NCBI RefSeq assembly: GCF_964059955.1
Contig: NZ_OZ060924.1
Span: 124,001-188,000 of the forward strand
Direction: 5' to 3'
Source: Sodalis-like secondary symbiont of Drepanosiphum platanoidis
GTDB lineage: Bacteria > Pseudomonadota > Gammaproteobacteria > Enterobacterales > Enterobacteriaceae
DNA: 64,000 nt
Below are positions 19,811 to 22,687 of this stretch, in pieces. The translations under genes were made by a program, and so were the position numbers. The notes under the pieces are model-generated. The model was not told where the DNA came from, made no database searches, and saw nothing but the letters and a program-made list of their open reading frames with translations. Position 1 is the first letter of the stretch; every line of letters begins with the position of its first letter.

Positions 19811-21427
19811 TTATTTTTTCCAAAAATTTAAACCTTTTTTATCAAGATTTTTATAAATTATATATTGTTGTATAATTGTTATTAAATTACTTACTATATA
19901 ATATAACACTAATCCTGATGGAAACCAAAGAAAGAAAAAAATAAAAATTATTGGAGTAAACATCATAATTTTTTTTTGTGATTGATCAGAAGATGTAGAA
20001 GGAGAAATTTTTTGAATAAAAAACATGGTTAAACCCATAAAAATTGGTAAAATATATAAAGGATCTTTATCTGATAAATCATATATCCATAAATAAAAAG
20101 GTGAATGTCTCAATTCTATAGAACTAGAAAGAACATAATATAATGATAAAAAAATAGGCATTTGAATAATTAAAGGAAAACAACCTCCAAGAGGATTAAC
20201 TTTTTCTTTTTTATATAACATAATTATTTCTTGACTTTGTTTTTGTTTATCATTTTTAAATTTTTCTCGTATAAATAATAATTTTGGATGTAAAATTTTT
20301 ATTTTTGCCATAGATATGTATTGAGATTTAGTTAAAGGATACATAATAATTCGTATAATTAGAGTAATTAATATTATTGATAAACCCCAATTATTAACAT
20401 AATAATTAATAAATTTTAATAATTTAAATATTGGTTGAGAAATAAACCATAACCATCCATAATCAACAGTTAAATCTAAATAAGGAGCTGTTTCTTTCAT
20501 TTTTTCCTGTATTTCTGGTCCAACCCAAAGCTTAGATATAAATTTATAAGAAGATTTTGGAGGTATAATTATAGTTGAAGATCTAAATCCAATAGATACA
20601 TAATTTTTATTATAATATTTACTATAAAAAGTATTAGTACCACTATTTAATGGTATCCATGCTGTAGCAAAATATTGTTGCAACATAGCAATCCATCCAT
20701 TATTTGTTTTAATTTTTAAATTATTATTTTTTATATTATCAAAACTATATTTTTGATATTTATTTAAATCTGTAGAATAAGCAGCACCTCTATATGTATG
20801 TAATGAAAATTTATTTAATTTTTTATTATTTTTTATAGGTAAATTATAAGATTGAATAAGTTTTCCAAAAAATTTTACATTTATTGAATTTTTACTTTTA
20901 TTATTAATATAATGATTTACTTGAATTGCAAAGTCATTTTTTTTAAATAAAAAAACTTTTTTATAAATTATTCCATCAGGAGATATATATTTAATTGGTA
21001 CTAATAAATTATTTTTTTTCTTATTAAGAACATAATTTTTTTTTTCAGAATGATATAATTTAGATTTATTATTAATTTTTTTATTACTAATATCTTTTAT
21101 TTCACTATTAGCTTTATATACAAAATTTTTATTACATTTTAATAAATGTATAGGTTTTAATGATTCAATTTTATCTTTATAATTTAATAAAAAAACATCT
21201 CTAATATTTCCACCATTCATATCTATTAATACAGATAAAACATCAGTTTTTACTTTAATAAAATTATTTATTTTATTTATTTTTTTTTTAAAATTATTAG
21301 ATAAATTATATAATTTAGATTCATTAATTTTATTTTTTTTTATATTATTTAATTCAAAAGATTGCCATATTAATAAAAATATAAATAATATTGTTATAAA
21401 AATAATATTTCTTTGAGAATCTGTCAT
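19811..21427 (-). CDS. yidC: Membrane protein insertase YidC
   Basis: Inserts and folds inner membrane proteins, alone or with SecYEG. 538 aa (E. coli 548). The N-terminal signal anchor SQRNIIFITILFIFLLIWQ is followed by a diverged, lysine/asparagine-rich periplasmic domain with GWIAMLQQYFATAW and YKFISKLWVGPE. The conserved core begins near residue 340: GWLWFISQPIFKLL, NWGLSIILITLIIRI, YPLTKSQYISMAKI, NPLGGCFPLIIQMPIFLSLYY and PSGLVLYYIVSN. Start ATG at 21427, 45 bp after yidD on the same strand. Confidence 0.96.
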   Translation of the reverse strand: MTDSQRNIIFITILFIFLLIWQSFELNNIKKNKINESKLYNLSNNFKKKINKINNFIKVKTDVLSVLIDMNGGNIRDVFLLNYKDKIESLKPIHLLKCNKNFVYKANSEIKDISNKKINNKSKLYHSEKKNYVLNKKKNNLLVPIKYISPDGIIYKKVFLFKKNDFAIQVNHYINNKSKNSINVKFFGKLIQSYNLPIKNNKKLNKFSLHTYRGAAYSTDLNKYQKYSFDNIKNNNLKIKTNNGWIAMLQQYFATAWIPLNSGTNTFYSKYYNKNYVSIGFRSSTIIIPPKSSYKFISKLWVGPEIQEKMKETAPYLDLTVDYGWLWFISQPIFKLLKFINYYVNNWGLSIILITLIIRIIMYPLTKSQYISMAKIKILHPKLLFIREKFKNDKQKQSQEIIMLYKKEKVNPLGGCFPLIIQMPIFLSLYYVLSSSIELRHSPFYLWIYDLSDKDPLYILPIFMGLTMFFIQKISPSTSSDQSQKKIMMFTPIIFIFFFLWFPSGLVLYYIVSNLITIIQQYIIYKNLDKKGLNFWKK

Positions 21428-21471: not shown

Positions 21472-21681
21472 TTATTTAAAAAATCTATTACATCTAATTA
21501 TTCTAAGAAAAATTAAATATAAACCTTTTATTATTCCAAATTTATTAATTGATTCAATACTATATTGAGAACAAGTTGGATTAAAAATACATCTAGATTT
21601 TAAAAATGGACTAATAATTATTTGATATATTTTAATAAAAAAAATAAATATTTTTTTTATTAAAAATAATATTGATTCCAT
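21472..21681 (-). CDS. yidD: Membrane protein insertion efficiency factor YidD
   Basis: Small inner-membrane-associated protein thought to help YidC-dependent insertion. 69 aa (E. coli 85). The conserved cysteine core is intact: IYQIIISPFL, CIFNPTCSQYSIESI and FGIIKGLYLI, then IIRCNRF. The family's C-terminal tail, with HPGG and a DPVP-like segment, is missing, so the protein is shortened after the last conserved Cys. The ATG at 21681 lies inside the 3' end of rnpA, a 22-bp overlap that is common for these genes. It sits between rnpA and yidC. Confidence 0.9.
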   Translation of the reverse strand: MESILFLIKKIFIFFIKIYQIIISPFLKSRCIFNPTCSQYSIESINKFGIIKGLYLIFLRIIRCNRFFK

Positions 21682-21994
21682 AATATTTCTAATATTTTAA
21701 ATATATGTTTATTTTTTATATTTTTTAATTTTGAATTTATTTTAATAATAAAATCCATATTTGGTAAATTATTTTTTTTAATTCTAAAACTTTCTCTTAC
21801 TATTCTTTTGAATTTATTTCTATTAAATGACTTATTAATATATTTTTTACTAACACAAATTCCAATTCTTGGATTTTTAATATTATTTTTTTTTCCATAA
21901 ATACAAATATTTTTTTTTATTTTAAATTTTTTACAAAAAAAAAATAATTTTTTTTAATTAAACGAAATTTTTTATTAAAAGATAAATTAGACAT
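21660..21994 (-). CDS. rnpA: Ribonuclease P protein component, frameshifted in a poly-A/T run
   Basis: The protein cofactor of RNase P, which matures tRNA 5' ends. The ATG at 21994 opens MSNLSFNKKFRLIKKNYFFF. The frame then hits TAA at 21919-21917 after 25 codons. The break follows ten consecutive T on the coding strand (21944-21935). With one more T the frame runs on to TAA at 21662-21660 and gives about 111 aa (E. coli 119). The restored part contains NPRIGICVSKKYI and NRNKFKRIVRESFR, the RNR signature, then NLPNMDFI. Position between rpmH and yidD confirms identity. It could be rescued by polymerase slippage, be a sequencing error or be a true pseudogene; as the gene is normally essential, one of the first two is likelier. 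Confidence 0.85.
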
Positions 21995-22004
21995 TTTAAA
22001 AAAT

Positions 22005-22148
22005 TTATTTAGTAGATATTGTTAATTGAAATCTTTTTTTTGCTCTACGACGAGATAAAATTTTTCTTCCATTTTTTGTTTTCATTCTAGCTCTAAATCC
22101 ATGATTTCTTTTTTTTTTTAAAATAGATGGTTGAAATGTACGTTTCAT
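22005..22148 (-). CDS. rpmH: 50S ribosomal protein L34
   Basis: A 47-aa basic protein of the large ribosomal subunit (E. coli 46). It starts [20 protein letters not shown] and continues with [19 protein letters not shown]; almost every position of the E. coli protein is recognisable, with a short Gln-Leu-Thr-Ile-Ser-Thr-Lys tail. The ATG is at 22148. It is first in rpmH-rnpA-yidD-yidC-mnmE, 10 bp before rnpA. In E. coli dnaA lies divergently next to rpmH; here the next gene is rho. Confidence 0.96.
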
Positions 22149-22687
22149 ATATTGCCTAAAATTAATTATTATATTAAAATTTTTTATAATTTTATTTTTA
22201 TATAAAATATATAAAAATAAAATAATTATTAATTTTTTATTAAAATTTATATAAAATTAATATAATAATATTTATTTTATTAAAAATAAAAATTTTTAAA
22301 ATTTTTTAATAAAAAATAATTTATAATTAATAATTAAATATTAATTTTTTTAAAAAAATTATATATTTTTTTTAAATAAAATTATATTATATATAATTTG
22401 TATTAAAGTGCAAGGAAGTATATTATTTATTATATATAATTTTAATTATATTTTTATAAAAATATTTTATATTAAATAAAATTTAAAATAAAATATTTTT
22501 ATTAAATAATTAAATTTATATACTAGAAATTTATAAACAAATGTGATAAAATAATTTGCTTATTTTTTATAAAATTAAATATATTTTTAATTTTTAATTT
22601 AATGATTTAAATAAAACTTTATTTGTACTCAATTATATATAAAATATTTAGTACTTTGATATACTTCAAGTTTAAGAACCCACCATT
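22149..22687. other. Divergent rpmH/rho spacer with the rho leader
   Basis: About 540 bp. No dnaA or dnaN is present, although these flank rpmH in many gammaproteobacteria. Most of it is A/T-only, but GC-containing islands stand out: one near 22405-22425 (GTGCAAGGAAGTA), one near 22535-22560 (ATAAACAAATGTGATAAA, only loosely like a DnaA box) and the rho leader at 22655-22687. Promoters for both genes must lie here, but none is convincing. Confidence 0.5.

Follow-up and report, generated by a model that had tools for sequence, protein, structure and literature searches.

The rnpA locus and its neighbours

The window, by which we mean the whole stretch of 64,000 nucleotides that was analysed (C1:124001-188000 of a two-contig genome of 472,091 bases with a completeness of 98%), comes from a very AT-rich, symbiont-like genome and has a G+C content of 13-21% across its length when taken in 4 kb steps. 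On its minus strand lie, in this order, rpmH, rnpA, yidD and yidC, and rnpA, which encodes the RNase P protein, is thereby found in the place expected for the RnpA gene. The upstream neighbour rpmH (L34; 22005..22148, with the open frame 22008-22256) and the gene yidD (21475..21681) are intact and were named from motif and position, with no family search, while the downstream neighbour yidC (19811..21427) is likewise intact.

The rnpA gene (21660..21994, minus strand, the stop codon of the 3' frame included) is not a single open reading frame, but is split over two frames. Its 5' piece (21917..21994) opens with ATG at 21994 and ends after 25 codons at TAA (21919-21917), with a run of ten T on the coding strand (T10, 21944-21935), so the early loss of frame that had been predicted for this gene is confirmed. 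The 3' piece (21663..21953, with its stop at 21662-21660) consists of 97 stop-free codons, and none of 20,000 simulated sequences (first-order Markov, same stretch) contained a stop-free frame of at least 97 codons. This frame alone matches the Ribonuclease_P family (PF00825) with E 8.2e-19 over profile positions 25-108 of 109, which agrees with the expectation of protein-level conservation 3' of the break, and the solved-structure matches at E ≤ 0.01 are RNase P proteins in 11 of 11 cases (best E 8.6e-17). A full-length protein with an RNR signature had also been expected; the 97-codon Ribonuclease_P frame is present, but its motif reads RNK (RNKFKR), a conservative variant of RNR that is also seen in the open RnpA frames of L029 and G005.

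The frame change must fall within T10 or the next 15 bases, before TAA; the rest of this interval (21920..21934) reads G T A6 T3 A4, and the heptamer T TTA AAA adjoins the stop. When the missing base is assigned to T10, to the A6 downstream of it or to the A4 next to TAA, a home-made RnpA profile (47 open frames chosen by motif and unchecked one by one) gives 104.9, 105.9 and 106.0 bits, respectively. As these scores are practically equal, no site is preferred and the exact slip site is not fixed: T10, in which the original prediction had put the break, is there and is the likeliest slip site, but the site could be anywhere from T10 to A4 (104.9-106.0 bits).

An internal restart within the 3' piece was considered as the main idea and rejected, since the first ATG, GTG or TTG is codon 66 of the 97. 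Codons ATA and ATT, which are rare start codons, are present in this piece from codon 12. At the other end, the read-through frame of rnpA overlaps the start of yidD with its 3' end (ATG at window 21681), and the coupling of yidD translation to rnpA may therefore also be affected when rnpA terminates early.

The reading that we prefer, to which we give a little better than an even chance, is that the one-base break at or just after T10 is real and that rnpA is still in use, with slippage over the run bringing some of the products into the right frame. A different outcome of a real frameshift would be a genuine early loss, in which nothing rescues the gene, RNase P works by its RNA alone and rnpA will decay. 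The RNase P RNA gene (rnpB) lies elsewhere in the genome, intact and at full length (297 bits; model positions 1-367), which would allow such a loss, and Hodgkinia is reported to have rnpB and apparently to lack rnpA, the authors of that study proposing that tRNA 5' ends could there be trimmed by the RNA without a protein (PMC6581868). Given an intact rnpB and this proposal, the statement that tRNA 5' processing depends on slippage was too strong. Against a loss stand the 97 codons that remain stop-free after the break; the downstream half of rnpA has no further stops, gaps or lost motifs, unlike what a pseudogene would show. The same lack of decay would be seen if the break were an error of assembly, which is taken up below.

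The shift required in rnpA is -1, and in-frame slippery heptamers occur up to the stop, so ribosomal -1 frameshifting (on T TTT TTT, A AAA AAT, or T TTA AAA before TAA) might also make full-length RnpA. Slippery heptamers are, however, everywhere in this genome (2,954 in 61,579 codons, with 390 in-frame occurrences of T TTA AAA in the same codons), and owing to the base composition of the genome those in rnpA are uninformative. In addition, shuffled versions of the 95 nt after T10 fold as well as the native sequence (z 0.05; 104 of 200 at least as stable), and no stem stimulator for -1 shifting was found in these 95 nt, where the model covers stems only and pseudoknots lie outside it.

Other long A/T runs, and the split pth gene, in the same genome

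It should also be considered that the break comes from an assembly or sequencing error, the DNA keeping its frame and rnpA being an ordinary intact gene, and a run of ten that comes out one base short is the textbook error of this kind. The intact ORFs of the window contain 31 A/T runs of 10 or more. In a larger sample of 224 kb of the genome (the window and eight stretches of 20 kb) there are 117 such runs in open frames, the two breaking runs included, and 42 of them are at least 11 long; the count covers selected open frames of at least 60 codons, a set that by construction leans toward unbroken frames. Genes are broken at two of these 117 runs, in rnpA and in pth, as found by a scan for neighbouring frames that lack a start codon near their beginning (183 selected open frames, of which 177 have 60 codons or more, and 46 adjacent pairs), which is blind to broken genes whose second piece opens with a start codon. 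In a Pfam check on part of the adjacent pairs only pth was split, the others being different families or full-length paralogues, and the 23-codon piece at L079:312-380 had no Pfam match. Since 115 of the 117 long runs were not seen breaking a gene, in a set that leans toward open frames, such runs are not in general badly assembled here, which speaks against an error in rnpA.

The pth gene of this genome (G000; minus strand, L081 8824-9389, equal to G000:C1:368824-369389) changes frame at an A11 run (G000:C1:369239-369249): profile positions 1-38 match in one of the frames, and positions 38-173 in the other. The runs in rnpA and pth could each be short by a single base, the pattern expected when a homopolymer is under-called; this favours an assembly error and counts against slippage.

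No close relative was found, and the genus holds this genome only. The best SecA identities to this genome among 80 small genomes are 67% over part of the protein and 65% over nearly the whole of it, and a YidC search of genome contigs, from which records of the genome itself were possibly left out, gave seven distant loci, including Candidatus Stammera. As for the second contig (L101, 12,989 bases), it looks like a B-vitamin plasmid, carrying an IncFII-type RepA gene, thiamine genes (ThiC, TMP synthase, ThiF, ThiG, a radical-SAM/BATS protein and phosphomethylpyrimidine kinase) and pantothenate genes of PanB and PanC type.

rnpA and pth in other small genomes

The comparison comprised small genomes of 200 kb to 1.2 Mb, namely a set of 80, a further 30 (one repeated) and the seven that a search gave for the genus g6 (two of them new), 112 distinct genomes in total including this one, all from a single family except G058; some small genomes, e.g., G029, G077 and G079, were not taken. 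rnpA is out of frame in ten of the 112, from five genera (G000, G006, G227, G365, G139, G179, G267, G335, G394 and G416). These ten were read as sequence and most other genomes were judged by the open-frame columns of the search output; where a long open frame gave a partial profile match (as in G187, G221, G409 and G005), the gene was counted as intact.

Nine of the ten breaks lie at or beside A/T runs of 9-11. In two species of one genus, G227 (A10) and G365 (A11) (L051, L082), rnpA is broken at the same run in a KK motif, neither being in frame, and its flanks are identical at 148 of 154 and 185 of 198 positions; G139 is broken at A10 in the same motif. G227 differs in the correction that its run calls for, removal of one base or addition of two, and the break of G006 (L033, about 4200) is of +1 type, at TAT CCC TAG, outside any A/T run; both of these count against slippage.

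In genus g6 (L069-L073), five of the seven species (G179, G267, G335, G394 and G416) share one rnpA break, a base lost directly before T9, and T9 itself is kept in all seven. The 22 codons after this break are open and similar, with a pN/pS of 0.57 versus 0.20 upstream, the wrong frames giving 0.94 and 2.14; there is no third-position excess after the break (6, 3 and 5 variable columns at codon positions 1, 2 and 3), and the codon signal here is weak and suggestive at most. That five species retain a shared break with an open downstream frame argues against early loss.

Several genomes have no match to the families in question, which speaks for early loss: PF00825 was unmatched at E up to 1 in two of the 112 small genomes (G118 and G147), and PF01195, the Pth family, in six of the 80 in which pth was searched (G083, G100, G208, G286, G354 and G409). 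In the same direction, Carsonella is reported to lack rnpA as well as pth (PMC2175510), although the control rplS is absent too in the same table. On the other side, both genes are on the core-essential list of the Enterobacteriaceae (PMC11481867).

A draw of 392 genomes bears on the error explanation. Three full-size genomes in it (G119, G229 and G304) match rnpA weakly, the match being broken up into two or three pieces; these are possibly assembly errors or real breaks, and if they are errors, such errors are part of the background for small genomes too. They also suggest that splits of rnpA arise where rescue by slippage is unlikely, as in full-size genomes. In this draw, an rnpA match was absent from two full-size genomes (G151 and G315) and partial in G028, which is 49% complete.

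Cases of a different nature are those of genus g126, in which TGA occurs within the rnpA match of three genomes, within L19 and SmpB of all four examined, and in frame in the Pth and SecA matches as well. YidC of Candidatus Stammera capleta (L049) has in-frame TGA that falls, under code 4, at W-like places, and L049 and g126 both probably decode UGA as Trp; taken as such, the g126 cases were left out of the count of rnpA genes that are out of frame.

For pth, the set was of 80 genomes (79 others and this one), and a PF01195 match was found in 74. In eight of these 74 the gene is split in two frames near profile position 37-50: in G000, in G018, in all three examined species of g116 (G115, G228 and G302) and in all three of g134 (G133, G240 and G312); in G187, of the same genus as G018, pth is intact. 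All eight breaks are at A9-A11 in the same lysine-rich segment with a shift of -1, a uniform direction that would also suit ribosomal frameshifting, which we nonetheless hold to be very improbable for rnpA. After the break, all eight genes have 133-146 open codons and keep HD(D/E)L and HNG, with (T/S)RHN upstream, motifs that we take to be catalytic. Downstream of the break, pN/pS is 0.44 in g134 (over 140 alignment codons); in g116 (147 alignment codons) it is 0.80, which is not low, and pS there, at 0.43, is probably saturated. Conservation downstream of breaks that are common to several species suggests that some rescue operates in such symbionts. The open codons and motifs retained in eight of eight split genomes count against early loss, which we consider quite unlikely for rnpA.

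Neither of the two controls of comparable size, L19 and SmpB, is split in any of the 80 genomes, SmpB of G337 being found as a fragment only. SecA is not clean as a control, many of the 80 rows having stops inside the match and G409 looking split, so that rnpA and pth stand out by comparison with L19 and SmpB only. In genus g84 (G083, G286, G354 and G409) the SecA match begins near residue 46-56, and in G409 the N-terminal part of SecA lies in another frame, possibly a secA frameshift shared by the genus. As rnpA and pth are out of frame in other lineages too and L19 and SmpB are not, we consider an assembly error at the present locus to be somewhat unlikely.

The proposed slippage and its comparison with known systems

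The indirect evidence favours the rnpA break being a real, tolerated frameshift. Since rnpA and pth look maintained and are also out of frame in other reduced genomes, their products are probably made by slippage, and judged by comparison with pth of this genome, rnpA of g6, and pth of g116 and g134, slippage would be the best-supported mechanism. Most likely, RNA polymerase would slip back on the weak rU:dA hybrid at T10 and add one U, some mRNAs with 11 U would then encode a RnpA of 111 residues, and this protein would join the intact RNase P RNA. The rescue put forward in the original prediction is accordingly kept as the mechanism best supported by analogy and comparison; for rnpA itself we infer a real run length, heterogeneous transcripts and a full-length RnpA made here, with an assembly error as the rival.

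If real, this would be a core-essential enzyme component that is made only through error-prone expression, and the case would bear on the smallest amount of RNase P protein that suffices for such a cell. The recurrence of rnpA and pth breaks across lineages also offers concrete loci for separating rescue from ongoing gene loss. A broader and rather doubtful idea is that rnpA and pth, core-essential genes that handle tRNA, repeatedly acquire, in reduced Enterobacteriaceae, frameshifts that are tolerated, and that slippage limits the amounts of RnpA and Pth, perhaps as a crude control of their level; the limiting of enzyme amounts is drawn from the pth break, which recurs at one lysine-run site in four genera, two of them with species that share it.

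Published work on symbionts offers some measure of such rescue. In a review, corrected transcripts are given as 12-50% in symbiont genes with poly(A) frameshifts (PMC5009743), while a transcriptome study of Buchnera found 151 of 157 transcript insertions in homopolymers, but reports no case of a restored frame (PMC5574713), which counts against the reading that we prefer. In Blochmannia vafer, eight homopolymer-frameshifted genes are described, pth being among these (PMC3017870, Williams and Wernegreen 2010). No mention of rnpA by that term was found in the texts of PMC3017870 and PMC4389277. No rnpA frameshift in a symbiont was found in the literature, as far as titles and the openings of abstracts indicate.

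Programmed -1 ribosomal frameshifting is a feature of the dnaX type and of IS elements. rnpA shares with it the -1 direction and the slippery heptamers, but differs in that no stem stimulator was detected in the 95 nt beyond T10 and the heptamers are at the level of the genome background. With the RNA-only RNase P proposed for Hodgkinia it shares an intact rnpB and an impaired protein gene, with the difference that rnpA is here almost wholly present and conserved.

The likeness is also to the genes of Blochmannia and Buchnera whose homopolymer frameshifts, in the work of Tamas (2008) and Wernegreen (2010), are said to be rescued by transcriptional slippage: an AT-rich genome of symbiont type, and a single break in an otherwise intact gene. 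Their breaks lie in A/T runs of about 9 or more, to which T10 in rnpA would correspond, its site being unfixed within T10 to A4, and pth is a gene that the present genome shares with the Blochmannia and Buchnera set. Their kind has strain-conserved breaks and mixed transcripts, whereas the rnpA break described here is known from the DNA of one genome. On this comparison, rnpA would belong to a known kind, that of homopolymer frameshifts rescued by slippage, in another gene.
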